From positions 1 through 60,880 of the forward strand of contig CABYVV010000008.1 in the NCBI GenBank assembly GCA_902522465.1: DNA of 60,880 nt, written 5' to 3'. The translations under genes were made by a program, and so were the position numbers. This stretch comes from an uncultured Alphaproteobacteria bacterium (GTDB lineage Bacteria; Pseudomonadota; Alphaproteobacteria; Methylaequorales; Methylaequoraceae). Positions within the stretch are counted from its first letter, which is position 1. Each line of letters begins with the position of its first letter. This document shows, one piece after another, positions 9,015-46,445 of the stretch. A model generated the notes under the pieces. It was not told where the DNA came from. It made no database searches and saw only the letters and a list, made by a program, of their open reading frames with translations.

Positions 9015-9728
9015 ATGGACGAAACTATTGATAAAAAAATAATTGAAGAATCATCTGATTTTTCTATCATTTCACTTTTCTTTCAAGCTGACATTGTTGT
9101 AAAGGTTGTAATATTAATTTTACTTCTTTCTTCAATTTGGTCTTGGACAATAATTTTTTCAAAATATACCAGTTTAAAAGGTATTATTATGGAGACTGAA
9201 GATTTTGAAGAAAAATTCTATTCAAGCGAAACACTCAGTAAACTCTCAAAAAGAATAGGTGGTCAACCTACCCATCCCATGGAAGCTGTATTTTTTTCGG
9301 CAATGGTATACTTTGACAGAATAAAAACTGGATTTTCTAATAAAAATTTTGAATTCAAAAAAAGTTTTTGTGAAAATGTAAAAAAAGAAATGGAAATCGT
9401 TATAAATAAAGAACTATCAAGTCTTGAAAAAGGGTTAAATTTTTTAGCTTCAGTAGGTTCTACAGCTCCATTTATTGGTTTGTTTGGTACAGTGTGGGGA
9501 ATTATGAATAGTTTTACAGCAATTGGTATTTCACAAAATACTAGCCTCGCTGTAGTGGCTCCTGGAATTGCAGAAGCTCTTTTTGCAACAGCACTAGGGT
9601 TGGTTGCAGCCATACCAGGCGTATTATTTTTTAATAAATTTAATAATATGTTAGATTCTCTAAATAATAAACTAGAGGTTTTTTCGGATGAGATTCTTGT
9701 AATCATTTCTAAGGAAATATTTAGGTAG
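9015..9728 (+). CDS. tolQ: Tol-Pal motor protein TolQ
   Basis: 237 residues with three predicted membrane helices: one near 25-48 (VVILILLLSSIWSWTIIF), and a hairpin near 145-215 containing LASVGSTAPFIGLFGTVWGIM and ALGLVAAIPGVLFFNKF, both family signatures. With TolR it forms the inner-membrane proton channel that energises TolA. It is the first Tol gene after ybgC with a 7-base spacer. A separate ExbB-type paralogue at 43.3-43.9 kb serves the TonB system. Confidence 0.95.
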   Translation: MDETIDKKIIEESSDFSIISLFFQADIVVKVVILILLLSSIWSWTIIFSKYTSLKGIIMETEDFEEKFYSSETLSKLSKRIGGQPTHPMEAVFFSAMVYFDRIKTGFSNKNFEFKKSFCENVKKEMEIVINKELSSLEKGLNFLASVGSTAPFIGLFGTVWGIMNSFTAIGISQNTSLAVVAPGIAEALFATALGLVAAIPGVLFFNKFNNMLDSLNNKLEVFSDEILVIISKEIFR

Positions 9729-9733
9729 TTTCT

Positions 9734-10132
9734 ATGAGAAAAAAATACAGGAAAAAAACAATGTCAGACATCAATGTAACACCTTTTGTTGATGTCATGC
9801 TGGTTTTATTAATTATTTTTATGGTAACAGCTCCACTTCTCTCTTCAGGTATAAAGATTAATTTACCTGAAAGCTCCTCGGTCTTAAAAAATGAAAAAAA
9901 AGATCCCGTGACAGTTTCTATAAATAACAATGGTGAAATTTTTATTCAAAAAAAAAAATTTACAAGCCAACAATTAATTCAAAAGTTAAAATTATTGAAA
10001 GAGAATAATAAAAACTTAAAAATTTACATTAAAGGTGATAAAAACTTGGATTACGGAAAAGTTATGGATTTGATGAGTTTGATTAATAAGTCAGGGTTTA
10101 CCAAAGTTGCACTCGTTACAAAATTAAAATGA
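9734..10132 (+). CDS. tolR: Tol-Pal motor protein TolR
   Basis: 132 residues. The single transmembrane helix begins DINVTPFVDVMLVLLIIFM and carries the proton-relaying aspartate D20. The periplasmic domain of about 90 residues ends in a predicted amphipathic region (MDLMSLINKSGFTKVALV). It pairs with TolQ upstream (5-base spacer) and is followed by tolA after 6 bases. The intact aspartate contrasts with the second ExbD at 42.5 kb. Confidence 0.95.
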   Translation: MRKKYRKKTMSDINVTPFVDVMLVLLIIFMVTAPLLSSGIKINLPESSSVLKNEKKDPVTVSINNNGEIFIQKKKFTSQQLIQKLKLLKENNKNLKIYIKGDKNLDYGKVMDLMSLINKSGFTKVALVTKLK

Positions 10133-10138
10133 TCAAAA

Positions 10139-10915
10139 ATGACTCAAGGCCTTTTTAAGTCTTTCTTTCTCCATTTGATAATTTTATTTTTCTTTGTCTA
10201 TGGTGCTGAAATTTTCAAGGAAAATAAAAGATTTGAAATTAATGAAATTCCACTTGAAATTGTTGATATTTCTGAAGAGACAGTCAATAAAGTAGAAAAC
10301 GAAAAAAAGAAAAAAGCTAAACCAAAATCATCTAAAAAAGATTTATCAGGATTTCAACCTCCAAAAGTAAAATCCAAACCCAAGCCTCCTGAATTTGCAA
10401 AAAAAATTAAAGAAAAAAAGAAAACAAAAGTAGATATTGAAAAGGAAGACCAAAAACAAAAAAAAAGGGTTGATAATATTCTTAAATCTATTGAAAAAAT
10501 TAAGTCTGCTAGTAAGAGTAAGTTACAATCAACTGAAAAGAAAGTTGAAGAAAAAGAGGAACTTGAGGAAAAAGAGGAAGTTAAGAGTATTAAGTTGGGA
10601 GAAAAACTTACAATTTCTGAGAAAGATGCAATAAGGAGGCAATTCTATAAATGCTGGATTGTTCCCGCAGGTGCAAAAAATATTAATGATTTTAAAGTTT
10701 CTCTTAGATTAAGGTTAAATAAGAATGGCGAGGTCTTGAATACAAAAATCATGAATAAAGAAAACATGAATAATACTTTTTTTAGAACATTAGCCGAAAG
10801 TGCTATAAGGGCTGTAAATCATCCTGATTGCAAGATATTAAAGGTCCCAAAAAAAAAATATGAAACTTGGAAAGAAACGATTTTAGATTTTGATCCGTCT
10901 GTTATGATAAATTAG
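10139..10915 (+). CDS. tolA: Tol-Pal energy transducer TolA
   Basis: 258 residues. An N-terminal transmembrane helix (SFFLHLIILFFFVYGAEIF, ~7-25) is followed by a long Lys/Glu/Pro-rich spacer (~45-160) and a C-terminal globular domain (KDAIRRQFYKCW through AVNHPDCKIL) matching TolA domain III. It spans the periplasm and transmits the TolQR proton-motive signal to TolB and Pal in outer-membrane constriction. The spacer is shorter than in E. coli TolA (421 aa), in line with the compact genome. Confidence 0.9.
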   Translation: MTQGLFKSFFLHLIILFFFVYGAEIFKENKRFEINEIPLEIVDISEETVNKVENEKKKKAKPKSSKKDLSGFQPPKVKSKPKPPEFAKKIKEKKKTKVDIEKEDQKQKKRVDNILKSIEKIKSASKSKLQSTEKKVEEKEELEEKEEVKSIKLGEKLTISEKDAIRRQFYKCWIVPAGAKNINDFKVSLRLRLNKNGEVLNTKIMNKENMNNTFFRTLAESAIRAVNHPDCKILKVPKKKYETWKETILDFDPSVMIN

Positions 10916-10965
10916 TAAATTATTTTTGCTTTTAGTATATAAAAAAATTAGAGTATAAAATAACC

Positions 10966-12273
10966 ATGAAGTTAAAATTTTTACAATTTATTTTATTTTT
11001 TATTCCATTATCTGTTAACTCAGAGTTAAGAATTGATATTACCCAAGGGAATATGAATCCAATACCAGTGGCAATACTTGAATTTAATTCTTCGAGTGAA
11101 GAATCTAAAGAAATTTCTTCTAACATCAACAACGTAGTTTCTAATAATTTAGAAAGGTCTGGTCTTTTTAAAATTCTACCTAAAAAACTTTTTTTTAATG
11201 TTTCTATCCCATTTGAGAAAAAGCCTGTATTTAATGATTGGAAAATAACAACAGCTCAAGGGTTGGTTCAAGGAAAATTAAAAATTAAAAATGAAAAACT
11301 TGACATTGAATTTAGACTTTGGGATGTACTCTCTCAAAAACAGATGGTTGCACAAAAACTATCAACAGAGAAAAGTAATTGGAGAAGAATAGCTCACGTT
11401 ATTTCAGACATTATATATCAGAGAATAACTGGGGAATCTGGTTATTTTGATAGCAGACTTGTTTACATTTCTGAATCTGGTCCTAAAAGCAATAGAAAAA
11501 AAAGGTTGGCAATAATTGATCAAGATGGTGCAAATCATAAATTCTTGACCGACGGTTCATATTTAGCTTTAACTCCTAGGTTTTCGCCAGCTGCTCAAGA
11601 AGTTGCATATTTATCTTACAATAATACAATACCTAGAATTTTTCTTTTAGACTTGAATACCGGTAACCAAAAGATTTTAGGAGACTTTCCAGGAATGACT
11701 TTTAGTCCGAGATATTCTCCTGACGGAAAAAAATTAGTAATGAGTTTAGCAAAAAATGGAAATACTGATATTTACGAAATGAATTTAACTACACTCAAGA
11801 TGAAAAGGCTTACTTTTTATGATGGAATTGATACAGCTCCTTCATATTCTCCTGATGGAGATTTCATCACATTTGAATCTGACAGAAGTGGAAGTCAAAA
11901 AATATATGTTATGAATTTAAAAACAAAAAAAATAAAGAGAATTAGCTTTGGTAAAGGAAAGTACGCAACACCGGTGTGGTCTCCAAGAGGTGATTTAATT
12001 GCTTTTACAAAATTACTAGGTGGAGAATTTTATATTGGTGTTATGTACACCGATGGTAAAGGGGAAAGAGTTGTCTATAAATCATATCTAGTTGAAGGCC
12101 CCTCCTGGTCTCCAAATGGAAGAGTTGTAGCGTTTTATAATCAAAACAAACTATCTGATGGAAGAATTTCAAGCCCTAAGGTTAAAATGATCGATTTAAC
12201 AGGTATTAATCTTAGAGAACTTGTTACACCATCAGATGCATCAGATCCTGCGTGGTCAGGATTACTACCCTAA
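10966..12273 (+). CDS. tolB: Tol-Pal periplasmic beta-propeller TolB
   Basis: 435 residues. There is a short signal peptide (FLQFILFFIPLSVNS, cleavage near residue 19), then an N-terminal alpha/beta domain and a C-terminal propeller with repeated PD40 signatures of the form FSPxxxxVAY or YSPDGxxIxF (for example PRFSPAAQEVAY, PRYSPDGKKLVM, PSYSPDGDFITF, PVWSPRGDLIAF). TolB docks on Pal and is pulled by TolA. A 50-base AT-rich spacer separates it from tolA. After its stop comes an A12-type tract and then the promoter of the small lipoprotein. Confidence 0.96.
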   Translation: MKLKFLQFILFFIPLSVNSELRIDITQGNMNPIPVAILEFNSSSEESKEISSNINNVVSNNLERSGLFKILPKKLFFNVSIPFEKKPVFNDWKITTAQGLVQGKLKIKNEKLDIEFRLWDVLSQKQMVAQKLSTEKSNWRRIAHVISDIIYQRITGESGYFDSRLVYISESGPKSNRKKRLAIIDQDGANHKFLTDGSYLALTPRFSPAAQEVAYLSYNNTIPRIFLLDLNTGNQKILGDFPGMTFSPRYSPDGKKLVMSLAKNGNTDIYEMNLTTLKMKRLTFYDGIDTAPSYSPDGDFITFESDRSGSQKIYVMNLKTKKIKRISFGKGKYATPVWSPRGDLIAFTKLLGGEFYIGVMYTDGKGERVVYKSYLVEGPSWSPNGRVVAFYNQNKLSDGRISSPKVKMIDLTGINLRELVTPSDASDPAWSGLLP

Positions 12274-12295
12274 TAAAAAAAAAAAAGACTTATCA

Positions 12296-12324
12296 TTGAC
12301 TTATGTCCTCTCAAAATGTAAAAC
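12296..12324 (+). promoter_or_regulatory. Sigma-70-type promoter for the small lipoprotein
   Basis: TTGACT (12296-12301), a 17-base spacer and TAAAAC (12319-12324) preceded by TG. The sequence ATTGACTTAT...TGTAAAAC is almost identical in bases and spacing to the promoter in front of pal 297 bases downstream. The predicted start of transcription is about 12331, leaving a leader of roughly 26 bases before the ATG at 12357. It is called from sequence only. Confidence 0.55.
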
Positions 12325-12356
12325 TGTAACCAGTTAACTTAAAAGGTATTTATTTT

Positions 12357-12530
12357 ATGAAAATCAAACTTTTCGTTATTTTAATCTCAGTTTCTTTTAT
12401 TAGTAGTTGTGCAGGTGACCAATATGTCGGTGCTGACAATTTAATACAAGACAATAGTTTTAGAGACATTCCAACGCATGATTCAGTTGATTGTTTCGGT
12501 TCCTGTACTGTAAAGATTTATAACAGATAG
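12357..12530 (+). CDS. Small lipoprotein between tolB and pal (57 aa)
   Basis: An ORF of 57 codons, ATG to TAG. The first 18 residues form a classical lipoprotein signal: MKIKLFV..., hydrophobic core, then the lipobox ISSC with C18 as the lipidated cysteine. The mature part is about 40 residues, acidic, with a second cysteine pair in DCFGSCTV. It has its own promoter (12296-12324), and a TTTTATGA context without a clear Shine-Dalgarno. I recognise no family. The position between tolB and pal suggests an envelope role in Tol-Pal function, but that is inference. Confidence 0.72.
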   Translation: MKIKLFVILISVSFISSCAGDQYVGADNLIQDNSFRDIPTHDSVDCFGSCTVKIYNR

Positions 12531-12592
12531 ATATCAGATTTATTTTATAATTTTTTTTAATCCTTAATAAATTGTTAATTAAACCTTAATGA

Positions 12593-12621
12593 TTGACTTA
12601 TTTCGGTACAGATTGTAAAAC
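12593..12621 (+). promoter_or_regulatory. Sigma-70-type promoter for pal
   Basis: TTGACT (12593-12598), a 17-base spacer and TAAAAC (12616-12621), again preceded by TG. The ATTGACTTAT block and the TGTAAAAC block are shared with the promoter at 12296. The predicted start of transcription is near 12628, giving a leader of about 37 bases with the Shine-Dalgarno AAGGA at 12649-12653 ahead of the pal ATG at 12665. The remaining bases of this 134-base gap hold no other structure I can support. Confidence 0.58.
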
Positions 12622-12664
12622 AATATGTAATAATACTAAATAAATTTGTAAGGATCTAAAAGTT

Positions 12665-13150
12665 ATGAAAAAGAAATACTTATCATTATTATTCGCTGGT
12701 TTACTTATGATCTCAGGTTGCGAAACCACTGGTGGTTCATCATCTGCTGGTAGCACACCAGGATATGAGTATGGCGATTCAAAACAAGCTAATCTGCAGG
12801 CTTATCTCCAAAATGAGATTGGTGACAGAGTCTACTTTGAAACAGACAAACATAATATATCATCAGCATCTGCTTATGTTTTAGAATCTCAGGCTAATTG
12901 GCTTAAATCTACACCTGGTTTTCAATTGCTCATTGAAGGTCACTGTGATGAGAGAGGTACTAGAGAATACAACTTAGCTCTAGGTGAAAGAAGAGGAAAC
13001 TCTGTTAAAGAGTTTTTGACCTCACTTGGTGTGGATCCTGGAAGGTTAACAGTAATCAGCTATGGTAAAGAGCGTCCAGCAGCAGATGGAAGCACCTCTG
13101 AATCATGGGCTGAAAACAGAAGAGCTGTGTTAGTTGTAAGTGGTAACTAA
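12665..13150 (+). CDS. pal: Peptidoglycan-associated lipoprotein Pal
   Basis: 161 residues. The signal peptide has lipobox MISGC (C19 lipidated). A Gly/Ser-rich linker (22-40) leads to an OmpA-C domain with DRVYFETDKHNIS and the peptidoglycan-binding EGHCDERGTREYN segment (91-103). Pal anchors the outer membrane to peptidoglycan and is the target of TolB. It has its own promoter, a proper Shine-Dalgarno and its own terminator, and its codons look smoother than those of neighbours; together these suggest a highly expressed gene. Confidence 0.97.
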   Translation: MKKKYLSLLFAGLLMISGCETTGGSSSAGSTPGYEYGDSKQANLQAYLQNEIGDRVYFETDKHNISSASAYVLESQANWLKSTPGFQLLIEGHCDERGTREYNLALGERRGNSVKEFLTSLGVDPGRLTVISYGKERPAADGSTSESWAENRRAVLVVSGN

Positions 13151-40284: not shown

Positions 40285-41616
40285 CTACCAGAAGAAGAAA
40301 GCACCGATACCACCAAATGAATCTTCTTGATCAGTGTCAGCAAGATACCAAGTTTTTTCTGTGTATCCACCTTCAGCGATCAATCTGAAGTTATCAGTAA
40401 CATTATGCCAAATCATACCAGAATGCATGGTTTGGTTATTCATGGTACCTAGGTTGTTTAGATCACTACCTGTTTTAGTTAGGTAGTTACCACCATAAGA
40501 ATAACCTACAGAAGTACCTTGACCGAAATCAAACGTACCTTGGATATATCCACCATAAGTTTTTCTTTCTTTACCATCGTCATCTAATGCACCAGTTGAA
40601 ATAGGTGTACCGTTATTAGATTGTCTGATAGGTAAAAGTGAGTGTTGACCTCTCATACCAAGACCAGAAGCATAGAAACCTGTAGCTACAAGTGAAAATC
40701 CTTCATAAGTAAGTTTAGTACCAAAACCTACACCAGCAGATTCAACACTTTCGTCTTCATCTTCCATATTTGCTTCAGTGGCAGTTGCGATAGCTTTTCT
40801 AGCAGCAATCTCAGCTGTAGTTCTTCCAGTACTTTGGTATGTACCATCAACCCATAGGTTAACGCCTACACCAGTTTGGAAGAAATCACCATTCCAAGTA
40901 ATTTGAGCCTCAACTCTTGGACCATGGTGATCAGTAGCACTTACAGCTACAGTATCAGCAGCTACGTCTTTTGGATCGAAGATACCAACTTTTGCACCAA
41001 AACCAGCACCAAGTTCAGGCAATGTCCATGAAACTTGAGGTTGGAAATCTGTGTAAAGATAACCAAGACCAATTCTACCTAAAGTTGTGTTGTTGTTACC
41101 AGCACTAGCTGCTCCACCAACACCAAATAGTAGCATATCGTTTAAAATCGCATTACTTTGGTGGATACCAAGACTACGACCAACCAATACAGTTCCGAAA
41201 AAACCAGATACTGAACCACTTGTTTCACGAATATTGATCTCGCCATTACCTAATGCGTTCTCTCCACCGTTCATGTGAGTATATAAACCAAGTCTTGCAG
41301 AAACATCTAAACCATTGGCTGTTGGAGCTTTAAGAGTCATACCCCAAACATTTGGTAAAAGACCTGTTACAATGCTTGTTTCTGAGTTATTAGCACCAAC
41401 CACACCTGCATATGTGTCAGCAGTAAATGCTGCTCCACCAGAGCGATTTGGCGCATCAGTACCACTATTCTGCATGATGAATGCGTTAGCAGCACCATCA
41501 AATGACACTTCCCAACCTTCTTGACTCATCAATAGAATTTTAGAATCAACGTTTGTGGAAGCTAATGCCATCACAGCAGGAATAGCAGCAACTGCTATTT
41601 TTTTAGAAATTTTCAT
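40285..41616 (-). CDS. Major outer-membrane porin
   Basis: 443 residues. The signal peptide (KKIAVAAIPAVMALASTNVDS) is followed by alternating strands rich in Gly, Asn, Thr and aromatics, and the protein ends GAFFFW with a terminal aromatic residue as recognised by the BAM machinery. Segments such as LGRIGLGYLYTDF and GGYIQGTFDFGQGTSVGYSYGG look like 16-stranded alphaproteobacterial porins. An acidic insertion (ANMEDEDESVES) probably forms a surface loop. Less biased codons, a strong Shine-Dalgarno (AAGGAAGGA) and a strong terminator suggest high expression. Confidence 0.9.
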   Translation of the reverse strand: MKISKKIAVAAIPAVMALASTNVDSKILLMSQEGWEVSFDGAANAFIMQNSGTDAPNRSGGAAFTADTYAGVVGANNSETSIVTGLLPNVWGMTLKAPTANGLDVSARLGLYTHMNGGENALGNGEINIRETSGSVSGFFGTVLVGRSLGIHQSNAILNDMLLFGVGGAASAGNNNTTLGRIGLGYLYTDFQPQVSWTLPELGAGFGAKVGIFDPKDVAADTVAVSATDHHGPRVEAQITWNGDFFQTGVGVNLWVDGTYQSTGRTTAEIAARKAIATATEANMEDEDESVESAGVGFGTKLTYEGFSLVATGFYASGLGMRGQHSLLPIRQSNNGTPISTGALDDDGKERKTYGGYIQGTFDFGQGTSVGYSYGGNYLTKTGSDLNNLGTMNNQTMHSGMIWHNVTDNFRLIAEGGYTEKTWYLADTDQEDSFGGIGAFFFW

Positions 41617-41743: not shown

Positions 41744-42514
41744 TTATTTTAGAATAAAATTTACAGGTATTTTTATTTTGAGTGTACCTTCTTTATCTAG
41801 GATCTGTTCTGGTGGACTGGGAAACTTAAAGTTTTTTAAAATCTTGATTGTTGCATTATAAAGCCTTTTTGGACTTTTATTTTCAAATTTAATATCAAGT
41901 AAATTACCATTTTTATCTAGAATTAATAACGAAACTATCTTCCCTTGTTCTCTTCTTTTTATTGATTGAATAGGATATGATTTTGATGCTACTTTATTTA
42001 TTTCATAGGATATAAAAGTTAAGTATTCACTTAAGAGTTTATCTACAATAATTGCTTTATTTTCCAACGAAAATCTTTTTGTAACACTTCTTTCGTTACT
42101 TTTTGTTTGAACTGTTTCGGTAACTTTTCTTGAAGGTTCCTTTTTTTTAATTACTTCTTTTGGAACACTTTTTTCATCAATAATCTCCTCAACCTTTTCA
42201 ATTTTTTTAGGTACTTCGTTATCTGGTTTTTTTAATGAGATAGTATTTTGATTGAGATCTTTGTTTTCAATTTTTTTTAATTTTTGTTTTTCAAGTTTTT
42301 TTGGTATTACATTTTTTTTTGGTAACGGTTCATCTTTTTTTTCAGTTTTTTCTTTTTGTTCGGTAGGTTTAACTATACTAAGCTCTCTATATTCACTTAA
42401 ATTGACAACATATATTTCATTTTCTTTCTTATCTAAAGTGAATTTAAAGATTATAATAAAGTGTGCTAATATTGAAAAAAAAATAGAAAAAAAAAGTAAT
42501 TTATAATCACTCAT
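41744..42514 (-). CDS. tonB: TonB-type energy transducer
   Basis: 256 residues. An N-terminal membrane helix (LFFSIFFSILAHFIIIF, about 7-23) precedes a Lys/Glu/Pro-rich periplasmic spacer (about 45-150) with PLPKKNVIPKK. The C-terminal domain (INKVASKSYPIQSIKRREQGKIVSLLILDKNGNL... ILKNFKFPSPP) matches the TonB C-terminal fold. It would carry the ExbBD proton-driven force to an outer-membrane receptor. It overlaps exbD by 8 bases and is the last gene of the operon. TolA at 10.1 kb is the separate Tol counterpart. No TonB-dependent receptor is in this window. Confidence 0.85.
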   Translation of the reverse strand: MSDYKLLFFSIFFSILAHFIIIFKFTLDKKENEIYVVNLSEYRELSIVKPTEQKEKTEKKDEPLPKKNVIPKKLEKQKLKKIENKDLNQNTISLKKPDNEVPKKIEKVEEIIDEKSVPKEVIKKKEPSRKVTETVQTKSNERSVTKRFSLENKAIIVDKLLSEYLTFISYEINKVASKSYPIQSIKRREQGKIVSLLILDKNGNLLDIKFENKSPKRLYNATIKILKNFKFPSPPEQILDKEGTLKIKIPVNFILK

Positions 42515-42917
42515 TTTTTAAATCTGAAACTTTTATAAAAACTTTCTTAACATCATTATTTTTCAGTTTTTTAATTATTTCATTAAATGTTGAAATTTTG
42601 GCATTTTTATCAATATTAAGGACGTACTTTGCATCTTTAAATTCTATATATTTTATAACCTCACCTAAGGATATTTTTTTTTCTTGGTATATTATTTCAT
42701 TTAAATTGTTAACAGTGAATAAAACTTCCTCATCTGCAATTTTAATATCTTCCCCGAAGTAGGAATGTGGTCTGTCAATTTTTACAGAGTCTTTCTTTGA
42801 AATAACTCCTGTCAAAAGAAAAAAAATCAGCAACAGAAAAATTAAATTTATCATTGGAATTAAATTTACCATCTCTGATAAGTCTTTTTTTTTGGTATTA
42901 ATTTGTTTCTTTATCAT
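42507..42917 (-). CDS. exbD: ExbD-family protein lacking the membrane aspartate
   Basis: 136 residues. The single membrane helix (VNLIPMINLIFLLLIFFLLTGVI, about 17-39) aligns with the ExbD/TolR helix, but the invariant proton-relaying aspartate is N24. The periplasmic domain keeps the family pattern (VLFTVNNLNEIIYQEKKISL, FNEIIKKLKNNDVKKVFIKV). It overlaps the intact exbD upstream by 20 bases and tonB downstream by 8. Since ExbD works as a dimer inside an ExbB pentamer, the two may form a heterodimer with a single protonatable subunit. ExbD versus TolR naming is by context. Confidence 0.82.
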   Translation of the reverse strand: MIKKQINTKKKDLSEMVNLIPMINLIFLLLIFFLLTGVISKKDSVKIDRPHSYFGEDIKIADEEVLFTVNNLNEIIYQEKKISLGEVIKYIEFKDAKYVLNIDKNAKISTFNEIIKKLKNNDVKKVFIKVSDLKNE

Positions 42918-43305
42918 TAGAAAAGTTTACATTTTTAATTTTATTTTTCTTTATTAAATCTAAAATAGATATAAGCAATTGCATTGATGTTTGCTGATCA
43001 TTTAAAATAACAATTCTATCAAAAGTGAGTTCTGACCATTTTTTTAAATAATCAAGTTCCAGATTTTTAAGGGTAAGTTTTTTATCGTTAAATACCAAAT
43101 TATTATCTCTAAGATAGAGAATCATTAATTTTTTTTCATTAACTTGGTCAGTAATTTCTTTTTTTTTTATAACTGAAAAACTTATCTGTTTATTTTTATC
43201 AAAATTAGTTGCCAACATAAAAAAAACTAACATAAGAAATATTATATCTATCAATGGTATAATATTAATTTTTAAAGATTGACGTTTTGTTTCTATTTTC
43301 AGCAT
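42898..43305 (-). CDS. exbD: ExbD-family protein with intact aspartate
   Basis: 135 residues. The membrane helix INIIPLIDIIFLMLVFFMLA carries D20 at the proton-relay position. The periplasmic domain (LMILYLRDNNLVFNDKKLTL, LLISILDLIKKNKIKNVNF) has the usual ExbD pattern. It starts directly after exbB with no gap. With ExbB it forms the proton-driven motor that energises TonB. Confidence 0.87.
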   Translation of the reverse strand: MLKIETKRQSLKINIIPLIDIIFLMLVFFMLATNFDKNKQISFSVIKKKEITDQVNEKKLMILYLRDNNLVFNDKKLTLKNLELDYLKKWSELTFDRIVILNDQQTSMQLLISILDLIKKNKIKNVNFSNDKETN

Positions 43306-43923
43306 TTATTTAATGGCCATAAGTTTTCTTAGCAATTGATCAATGTTTGAATAATAATTAGTTATTTTTTTTTCTAAAAAATAATGGCTCACTAATGCAG
43401 GAATTGCGACTATGAGGCCCATTGCTGTTGTTAATAAAGCTGTCCATATTCCACCTGCCAATATTGATGGATCAACAAGACTACCTCCTAATTCTAATTC
43501 ATTGAATGAATCAATCATTCCAATTACTGTTCCTAATAAGCCAATTAAGGGACTAACTTGAGAGATAATCTCAAGAGATGGTAAAAGAGACTGACGTTTA
43601 CTAAATTCTGAATCTACAATAGAATTTATCTCTGCTTCAATTTCATTCACAGATTTATTATCTAGGAAAACAACTAAAATTTCCTTGAAGAAATTTCTTT
43701 TTGCATTTGGCGCTAAATCAAGATGGTGCTCATTTATTTCTTCTATAGATATTTGTTTATTAGAATTATCAATAAGACTTATAACTTTACTAAAATCTAG
43801 GTTTTGAAATATATAAATTTCTAAAAATTTAAAGGTAATAATTGTAATAGTTACTATAGATAAAATGAATAAGAATGAAAAAATCAAACCTCCTTTATCA
43901 AGGTATGTTAAGAAAGACTCCAT
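43306..43923 (-). CDS. exbB: ExbB-type motor protein
   Basis: 205 residues with three predicted membrane helices (about 13-33, 125-150, 165-185). The signature ISQVSPLIGLLGTVIGMIDSF and GLIVAIPALVSHYFL place it in the MotA/TolQ/ExbB group. It differs from TolQ at 9 kb and is followed by two exbD genes and tonB. It starts 18 bases after the ABC ATPase gene, so one transcript probably covers both systems. Confidence 0.87.
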   Translation of the reverse strand: MESFLTYLDKGGLIFSFLFILSIVTITIITFKFLEIYIFQNLDFSKVISLIDNSNKQISIEEINEHHLDLAPNAKRNFFKEILVVFLDNKSVNEIEAEINSIVDSEFSKRQSLLPSLEIISQVSPLIGLLGTVIGMIDSFNELELGGSLVDPSILAGGIWTALLTTAMGLIVAIPALVSHYFLEKKITNYYSNIDQLLRKLMAIK

Positions 43924-43941: not shown

Positions 43942-44691
43942 CTAAATTAATCCTTCCAATAAAGAAGGAAATTTCTTTTTTAAAAAAGAATACTCTTCTT
44001 GAATTTCTTTATTGTCAATAGATAGATTTTTCCTAGTTGATTTTACCTTATGTTCATAGACAACAGATGCCGGTCTTTTTGAGAAAAAAATTATTCTGTC
44101 AGCGAGTAAGATGGCCTCTTTTAGATTGTGAGTGATAAGTATGATGGTTATAGGGTTTTTCTTCCAATAACTTATCAGAACATTATATAAGTTTTCTGAT
44201 GTTGGCTGATCTAGTGAAATAAATGGTTCGTCCATCAGAAGAACTTTCGGGTTTCTTGCTAATGCTCTTGCAAGAGATACTTTTCTTCTCATTCCTCCCG
44301 AAATTGATTTTGGATAATAGTTTTTGAATTCACTTAGGTTAAAGTTAATAAGTAATTCATCAATTCTTTCTTGGCTTTCTTTTTCGTCACATACTAGTTC
44401 GATGTTTTCTTTTACTGTTAGCCATGGGAGGAGTCTTGAAGTTTGAAAAACATATCCAAAGTTTTTGTCAATTTGAAGCTTCTTTTTGTTTAAGAGAATT
44501 TTTTGTTCATCACTTTCTATTAATCCACCTATTATATTCATAAGTGTGGTCTTCCCACATCCTGAAGGACCAACAATACATACGAACTCACTATGTTTAA
44601 TGGAAATATCGATATTTTTTAAAACTTTGACTAATGAATTGTCGTGTTTATTAATAAAATCTTTTTTTTTAATTTTAATCTCAAAACTCAA
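43942..44691 (-). CDS. ABC transporter ATPase (NitT/TauT type)
   Basis: 249 residues. Walker A is GPSGCGKTT (41-49), the signature is SISGGMRRKVSLARAL, Walker B is VLLMDEPF, and the switch histidine is in LITHNLKEA. It belongs to the nitrate/sulfonate/taurine importer ATPase group and works with the permease and binding protein just upstream. The gap to the permease gene is 6 bases. Confidence 0.92.
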   Translation of the reverse strand: MSFEIKIKKKDFINKHDNSLVKVLKNIDISIKHSEFVCIVGPSGCGKTTLMNIIGGLIESDEQKILLNKKKLQIDKNFGYVFQTSRLLPWLTVKENIELVCDEKESQERIDELLINFNLSEFKNYYPKSISGGMRRKVSLARALARNPKVLLMDEPFISLDQPTSENLYNVLISYWKKNPITIILITHNLKEAILLADRIIFFSKRPASVVYEHKVKSTRKNLSIDNKEIQEEYSFLKKKFPSLLEGLI

Positions 44692-44697
44692 AATTAA

Positions 44698-45447
44698 TTA
44701 CCTCCAAATTGATATTTTTTTTTCAAATGGTCTAACTAAAATAAATTCTACAAAAATAATTAACAAAACAAATACTAAAGTATAAGCAAGAATTCCTGAA
44801 ATATCAAAAAATTGAAAAAAACCAAATAATTTAAATCCTACCCCATTACTTCTTCCTAGCAACTCAACAACTAATACAATCTTCCAAATTAGAGATAATC
44901 CTGATCTCGCAGAAGAGAGCAAATAGGGAAATAATTGAGGTAGAATGACTTTAAAAAAAAACTTTTTTTTTGAAATTTTATAAAATTTTGCAACATCTAT
45001 ATAATCTTTTTCAATAGATCGAGCACCTTCTCTCATGATTACCGCAACCATTGGAATCTTATTCAATGAAACTGCTAAAATCGCTGCCACTTCGTTCAAA
45101 CCAAACCAAACATAACATAAGATTATAATTACTAAAGCTGGTACATTTAGGCCTAAAATCAACCAATCATCTAAGAAAGAGTTTAGTCTTTGATTTCTTC
45201 CCATATAAATGCCAAAAAAAGTTCCGATGAACATGGCTATTATAAAAGACAAGACAACTCTTTTTAATGTAATAACGGTATGATAAATAATTTCGTTATT
45301 TTCAGATTCATCAATTATTTTAAAGATTACATCTTTAGGTCCAGGAAGCAAATCTACTTGCATAAAATAACTTGCTACTTGCCACAATCCAAAGAAAATT
45401 AAGATTGAAGCAATCCTAATAATTGCATTTGGATTTTCTTTTTCCAT
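44698..45447 (-). CDS. ABC transporter permease (NitT/TauT type)
   Basis: 249 residues with six predicted membrane helices. The EAA-like loop that contacts the ATPase is in IDVAKFYKISKKKFFFKVILPQLFPYLLSSARSG. The N-terminal and C-terminal helices are typical of the BPD_transp_1 fold. It sits between the binding-protein gene (2-base gap) and the ATPase gene. Confidence 0.9.
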   Translation of the reverse strand: MEKENPNAIIRIASILIFFGLWQVASYFMQVDLLPGPKDVIFKIIDESENNEIIYHTVITLKRVVLSFIIAMFIGTFFGIYMGRNQRLNSFLDDWLILGLNVPALVIIILCYVWFGLNEVAAILAVSLNKIPMVAVIMREGARSIEKDYIDVAKFYKISKKKFFFKVILPQLFPYLLSSARSGLSLIWKIVLVVELLGRSNGVGFKLFGFFQFFDISGILAYTLVFVLLIIFVEFILVRPFEKKISIWR

Positions 45448-45449
45448 TT

Positions 45450-46445
45450 TTAGTTATCCCAGAATGTTCCTGGTGATAATGTCTCTGCTTTTCCTACTAA
45501 TTCACGCCCACCAATCTGTGAGAGGATGGAGTATAACTTCTTTGAACCCTCGATTTGTTGGTTGGTGAAGTCATGTGGCGGTATACCTTCTCTATAAATA
45601 TCTCTTAGATTTACAAAGAGATTGTCATCTTCAGCATTCATGAAAGGACGGACTTTATCCCAGATGTCATCTGATTCTAACATCATTTTTTTAGCTTCTT
45701 TAGAAACTGTTAGAAAGTTGTTAAGTAGATCAGTTTTTCCTTGAGCCCATTCATCTCTAAAAACCCATCCAATAACTGGTATGCCCTTTGGTAAGTCAAG
45801 TTTAGATAAAATGTCCGTTATATTAATAACTTTTACAAAATTATCATTGGTGAGAAGTTTTGCTTGATATGGCCAATATGTTAAAATGGCATCGAAGTTA
45901 TTCTGTTCAATTTTCTTGTTTAGTAGAGGTGGTGCACCGAAGATTTGTCTGCTAATATCTTTTAACTCAATGCCGTATTCTTTTTTGAAGTACGCTCTAA
46001 AAATTAACCAGCCTTTGTCAACTTGTCCTCCGGCAATTCCAATCTTTTTACCTCGTAAGTCTTTTTCGTTCTTTATACTAGAATCTTTGGCAACTATTAA
46101 TCCGCCTGCAGCCATTGAGTGTGGAACAAACGTGAAGAGTCTACCCTCGTTTCTTTGACGAGAAACCCAAAACCAATCAGTTACAATCATGTCAACGGCT
46201 CCCCCTTGAAGAGCAACTGCAGCAGCATTTTTACTAGCAAGCTCAACAATTTCCAAATTAAAACCATTATTTTTGTCTAAACTTAGTTCTTTAATGAGCT
46301 TTAATTCCCAGTTTACACTTCCGTATAAAAGGGATCCAATTTTAATTGTATTTTGATTAGAAAAAGAGGCTTGACTGAAAAAAGTCAAGATCGCAAAAAA
46401 AATCAGATTAAAAAAAATCTTTAATATTTTATTTTTCCGTGACAT
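45450..46445 (-). CDS. ABC transporter substrate-binding protein (NMT1/TauA-like)
   Basis: 331 residues. A signal peptide (IFFNLIFFAILTFFSQASFS, cleavage near residue 29) is followed by a two-lobed periplasmic binding protein with VALQGGAVDMIVTDWFWVS, LRGKKIGIAGGQ and a central ILTYWPYQAKLL. The fold is that of NMT1/THI5, SsuA and TauA. The ligand is unknown; candidates by family are sulfonates, pyrimidine precursors or other small organics. It heads an operon that runs into exbB-exbD-exbD-tonB, and it is divergent from tusA. Confidence 0.87.
   Translation of the reverse strand: MSRKNKILKIFFNLIFFAILTFFSQASFSNQNTIKIGSLLYGSVNWELKLIKELSLDKNNGFNLEIVELASKNAAAVALQGGAVDMIVTDWFWVSRQRNEGRLFTFVPHSMAAGGLIVAKDSSIKNEKDLRGKKIGIAGGQVDKGWLIFRAYFKKEYGIELKDISRQIFGAPPLLNKKIEQNNFDAILTYWPYQAKLLTNDNFVKVINITDILSKLDLPKGIPVIGWVFRDEWAQGKTDLLNNFLTVSKEAKKMMLESDDIWDKVRPFMNAEDDNLFVNLRDIYREGIPPHDFTNQQIEGSKKLYSILSQIGGRELVGKAETLSPGTFWDN

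Follow-up and report, generated by a model that had tools for sequence, protein, structure and literature searches.

The ExbB-ExbD-TonB and TolQ-TolR-TolA complexes of Escherichia coli are 5:2 motors in which a single ExbD or TolR gene gives both axle subunits, each with an essential Asp. This relay Asp has been called absolutely required (PMC12905483), and E. coli ExbD(D25N) is inactive (PMC11658791). ExbB Glu176 has likewise been called essential in E. coli (PMC8599685). In rotary models of MotAB, ExbBD and TolQR, protonation alternates between two identical Asp (PMC12215075), and in the published scheme each 36-degree step exchanges the roles of two equal Asp (PMC9389320, PMC12215075). One review regards it as almost certain that all 5:2 motors share tenfold rotational symmetry (PMC9389320).

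Duplicated or unlike axle genes have been described in several bacteria. The tonB1-exbB1-exbD1-exbD2 genes of Sphingobium SYK-6 also form an alphaproteobacterial Ton operon with a tandem exbD pair, but there both ExbD keep Asp25 and tonB comes first in the gene order; its exbB1, exbD1, and exbD2 could not be disrupted (PMC8599685). Tandem exbD genes are known in Xanthomonas and Flavobacterium, and in Xanthomonas campestris exbD1-exbD2 lie in a tonB-exbB cluster, with no discussion found there of the relay residue of ExbD2 (PMC3551730). In the AglR-AglQ/AglS system of Myxococcus there are two MotB-like subunits per MotA-like subunit, as a hetero- or homodimer, but this is a gliding motor, and no report of a D/N split in it was found (PMC9389320). 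Heterologous tolR-like gene pairs and TPH-vWA pairs place unlike axle subunits beside a tolQ-like gene; the TPH-vWA pairs are described as having one Asp per monomer, and the tolR-like pairs of the PVC group were not analysed for Asp (PMC12204202).

The operon described here shares with the E. coli motors the protein families, the threonine rings, the transmembrane (TM) helix with a periplasmic domain, and the TonB partner. It differs in that two genes encode the ExbD proteins, and one of them has Asn in place of the relay Asp. The described 5:2 axle is a homodimer with two Asp; here there are two unlike axle genes. The D/D tandem in a Ton operon, tandem exbD genes, and heterologous tolR-like pairs are already known, and the D/N split appears to be new. 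No description of it was found in the open-access papers searched, where the only work found on an ExbD with Asn or without Asp was that on the E. coli D25N mutant.

Structure of the operon

The window (the whole stretch of 60,880 nucleotides that was analysed, from an uncultured Alphaproteobacteria bacterium) carries exbB-exbD1-exbD2-tonB as one overlapping operon on its minus strand, as read from the list of open reading frames (ORFs) and their translation (Table 1). exbD2 and tonB overlap by 8 bases, and the gene overlaps suggest coupled translation. The tonB-like product has a TM helix at its N-terminus, which carries the S-x3-H of the SHLS motif, and a TonB_C domain.

Table 1. Features of the exbB-exbD1-exbD2-tonB region in the window
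Feature	Position	Strand	Remarks
ABC importer: ATPase, permease, NMT1/SsuA-like binding protein	43942..46445	-	directly upstream of exbB
exbB (205 aa)	43306..43923	-	MotA/TolQ/ExbB family; PF01618 94 bits
exbD1 (135 aa), relay Asp20	42898..43305	-	PF02472 74.1 bits; begins directly 3' of exbB
exbD2 (136 aa), relay-site Asn24	42507..42917	-	PF02472 51.3 bits; 20-base overlap with exbD1
Asn24 codon AAT of exbD2	42846..42848	-	codon-pattern match at 42819-42857
tonB-like (256 aa)	41744..42514	-	PF03544 38 bits; TIGR01352 27.6 bits vs cut-off 27.1

In the four relatives checked, length-matched genes flank the operon on both sides, upstream of exbB and downstream of tonB, and their order is the same. 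Since the importer genes adjoin exbB and this order is kept, the Ton genes may be co-transcribed with those of one particular importer. Just downstream of tonB there is a porin-like outer-membrane protein of 443 aa (40285-41616), which had no Pfam or NCBIfam match; at this place an ORF about as long is present in the relatives.

Relay site and fold of the two ExbD proteins

ExbD1 (INIIPLIDIIFLML) has the proton-relay Asp in its TM helix, as Asp20 in INIIPLID20IIFLML, while in ExbD2 (VNLIPMINLIFLLL) this Asp is absent and Asn24 stands in VNLIPMIN24LIFLLL. HMMER alignment to PDB chains placed D20 opposite the Asp of an ExbD chain (NVTPFIDVML) and N24 opposite the Asp of a TolR chain (NIVPLLDVLL). 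The translation and this alignment uphold the preliminary description, which had reported D20 in the upstream protein and N24 at the aligned place downstream, and no different aspartate was found at the relay position of the second protein. A substitute acid was considered and rejected, as inspection of the translated ExbD2 revealed no other acidic residue in the membrane helix.

Both copies match PF02472 over the full length of the profile (cut-off 25.4 bits), ExbD2 covering positions 1-127 of its 128. In their AlphaFold (AF2) models a TM helix is joined to a periplasmic domain with the fold of ExbD, and the best Foldseek matches of these models are E. coli ExbD structures (8p9r, 8pek, 8vgd). 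This agrees with the earlier remark that the second protein is otherwise intact. Neither copy reached the NCBIfam cut-offs for ExbD/TolR equivalogs (about 43-44 bits for both, against 123 for TIGR02804); by score, both are divergent relatives of these equivalogs.

Distribution of D/N pairs

Our survey covered about 770 genomes from the class and phylum of the window. ExbD2 was searched for in 96 relatives, and the same operon was found in the genus and family of the window, every pair readable at both copies being Asp then Asn; within the same family this held for 24 of the 24 relatives with two readable copies. Two loci (L030 and L033) carry the operon into two further families.

We then ran a codon pattern (P-h-h-N-h8-F) on the class and phylum samples, with the reversed pattern as control. 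Matches were found in 60 of 385 class genomes and 30 of 398 phylum genomes, and the control was nearly empty. Eleven loci with pattern matches lacked a recognisable ExbD and were discarded. For all true ExbD matches the adjacent upstream gene was another ExbD, with Asp wherever the site could be read. The bias of a search that starts from Asn was checked independently of that residue, by running a profile of 26 second copies against the 385 class genomes and inspecting the best matches that the pattern had missed. This added nine Asn copies, one second copy with Ser (L190), and one with Asp (L191); two further Asn copies missed by the pattern (L143 and L155) were met separately.

In total, 106 distinct D/N pairs were found, together with one D/S and one D/D orthologue. 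The D/N pairs occur in 33 family codes, 29 of them in Alphaproteobacteria, the class of the window, and four outside it. The relay residue was Asp in 106/106 alignable first copies and Asn in 106/108 second copies, the exceptions being the Ser and the Asp already mentioned. Loci with an Asn copy were always ordered ExbB-ExbD(D)-ExbD(N), and among those retrieved we found no Asn copy without an upstream ExbD, the partner having Asp in all cases but one, where a contig end truncates it and the site cannot be read. A tblastn search of three Asn copies against the PLSDB plasmids gave no matches.

The preliminary description had proposed a survey of exbB-exbD-exbD-tonB operons for a conserved D/N split, and such a split was indeed found. 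With all 24 same-family relatives D/N and Asn in nearly all second copies, it is not a matter of chance, and the survey also rules out a pseudogene or sequencing error behind Asn24. Relatives with Asp in both copies had been named as counter-evidence; one such orthologue exists, L191, which is a nested exception, and the 12 other D/D tandem pairs that we found are of other ExbD types.

Origin of the second copy

A maximum-likelihood tree was built from 117 rows, and a branch with an SH-aLRT support of 88 had all 53 Asn copies on one side. After masking of the relay residue, in a tree of more rows, all 60 second copies still grouped together, joined by one long-branched first copy (L133), with a support of 83; the possibility that the trait itself drives the grouping was rejected on this ground. 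Both trees rest on 127-134 columns and their support is moderate. Within the masked tree the Ser copy of L190 lies inside the Asn copies of its own family, and the Asp copy of L191 pairs with the Asn copy of L085 as its sister (support 98). These two loci, L190:2003-2847 (G342), with PLISVVF, and L191:2004-2883 (G140), with PLIDVSMF, are natural comparison motors.

Because the second copies stand apart even when the relay column is masked, the best fit is a single ancient change from Asp to Asn that selection has maintained. The simplest reading is one duplication and a single Asp-to-Asn change, after which one copy turned to Ser and another reverted to Asp. Both synonymous Asn codons are in use among the orthologues (AAT 57, AAC 49), a point in favour of selection at the amino acid level.

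In the alignment, conserved periplasmic residues are divided between the two copies in a complementary pattern. First copies have a Gln (93/106) and an acid, D or E (94/106), in the last periplasmic helix, both of which are lost in the second copies. The 'AD' aspartate of the 'RAD' strand motif, in turn, was found in only 30/106 first copies and in 100/108 second copies. E. coli ExbD aligns with acids at all of these sites.

Partner proteins

Both ion-path Thr of ExbB (E. coli T148 and T181) were intact in the ExbB of the window and, by column check, in 95/95 ExbB proteins of D/N systems. The site of E. coli Glu176 is Thr in the window, and in the 95 D/N systems it was E in 39, T in 27, V in 15, L in 5, Q in 4, I in 2, A in 2, and G in 1. 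We considered whether loss of Glu176 is coupled to the Asn copy; with E kept in 39 systems and other residues in 56, this was rejected.

The gene downstream of exbD2 was TonB-like, with a TonB_C match, in at least 39 of 55 cases. Some of the non-matching ORFs look like wrong-frame ORFs of GC-rich genomes. One of the 55 scanned ORFs matched ApbE and one DUF2271; at L126:1840-3039 the ORF after exbD2 is unlike TonB and is likely the ApbE/DUF2271-matching one. TonB-dependent receptor genes adjoin some D/N operons, and at L098 they lie between two divergent D/N operons. A FecA/siderophore-type TonB-dependent receptor was seen near a TupA-like gene (220 bits, below the equivalog cut-off) at L207:2376-5992. 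TupA binds tungstate, and the two genes are possibly a TonB-dependent tungstate route.

In the genome of the window (1.33 Mb, 87% complete) the ExbD/TolR genes number three, the D/N pair and one TolR. We rejected the D/N operon as a Tol-Pal system: the TolR equivalog score is far below cut-off, and the genuine set, to which the TolR belongs, is tolQ-tolR-tolA-tolB-pal at 9015-13150. ExbB, ExbD, and TonB are encoded together in the D/N operon and there are three TonB-dependent receptors in the genome. A second tonB lies directly beside a TonB-dependent receptor at L209:2188-5008, with no exbB or exbD seen adjoining it, so that its product would depend on the D/N motor as well. No ExbD set outside Tol was found other than the D/N pair, which is the sole Ton motor as far as the 87% complete assembly goes; from this we infer that it drives TonB-dependent uptake by the proton motive force. 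Of the roughly 60 carriers among the class genomes, 36 had exactly three ExbD/TolR matches (by match number alone, the third being presumed to be TolR), and in many hosts the D/N pair is apparently the sole Ton motor.

Discussion

We consider that exbB-exbD1-exbD2-tonB probably encodes the Ton motor of this cell, built on an obligate heterodimer of ExbD1 and ExbD2, so that each axle would have a single proton site. The chances appear evenly balanced that the D/N pairs as a whole represent a widespread class of 5:2 proton motors, with obligate ExbD heterodimers of one catalytic Asp and one locked-neutral Asn. The heterodimer is favoured in the sequences by the fixed locus order, the near-fixed Asn, the complementary residues, the intact ExbB threonines, the TonB partner, and the sole non-Tol ExbD set.

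In the proposed complex, one ExbD1 and one ExbD2 would pair inside the ExbB pentamer. For such a heterodimer the preliminary description had suggested a different proton stoichiometry or a gated motor, either of which may hold. Asn is shaped like a permanently protonated Asp. Through this mimicry the proton cycle, uptake as well as release, would be run by ExbD1 only, and the helix of ExbD2 would follow passively through the hydrophobic interface. One active site per axle would give at most 5 protons per turn, with 72-degree or 'limping' steps, against 10 protons and 36 degrees with two sites. Half of the steps would then be passive, or the stroke would be reciprocal, a rocking to and fro without rotation. 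ExbD2, which alone keeps the AD aspartate, would have a mainly periplasmic role in contact with TonB or peptidoglycan, and this would agree with E. coli, in which each complex was seen to hold one TonB.

Against the heterodimer stand the relative with Asp in both copies (L191), the inactive D25N mutant, and the two-Asp rotary models; in view of the mutant and the models, an axle with one Asp may need a different mechanism in order to run. As the Asp has been called absolutely required, either the partner Asp must suffice here or homodimers of ExbD1 do the work. The latter is the main rival, and we think it rather unlikely. On this account ExbD1 homodimers drive the motor, and complexes of ExbD2 are proton-dead, separate or exchangeable, acting as a brake, reserve, or regulator (e.g. 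a closed state exchanging with the active one). ExbD1 alone does have all the membrane features that E. coli ExbD needs. In X. campestris, exbD2 is dispensable for iron uptake and needed for pectate lyase activity (PMC3551730), so that a subsidiary function for a second ExbD has a precedent. However, ExbD1 has largely lost the AD aspartate that ExbD2 keeps, and every retrieved Asn copy has its partner.

It is much less probable that the Asn joins the ExbD1 Asp and the threonines of ExbB in binding the coupling ion (e.g. Na+), in a differently coupled motor. The Asn is almost as strictly conserved as the Asp, and the variable Glu176 site means that the pore surroundings differ from those of E. 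coli, but one orthologue has Ser and one has Asp, and a shared site is disfavoured by most known 5:2 structures, where the two Asp face opposite ways (PMC12905483). That exbD2 is a decaying duplicate under relaxed selection is hardly credible: only one base separates GAY from AAY (AAT being the codon here) and the copies have diverged outside the membrane helix, but the survey already contradicts decay, with the Asn kept across the 33 family codes through synonymous codon turnover from one origin, and the frames and fold are intact.

An unequal ExbD pair, with Asp in one copy only, that has been kept since an ancient gene duplication in many bacteria fits the sequence data best. If the one-Asp heterodimer class is real, it would break the supposed tenfold symmetry: a turn would use about 5 protons, in steps of 72 degrees or in unequal pairs of steps, or the motor would rock without rotating. 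The two ExbD subunits of such an asymmetric complex would be distinguishable in a cryo-EM map. With a natural one-acid axle, the need for two Asp, for full rotation, and for ten protons per turn could also be put to a ready test.
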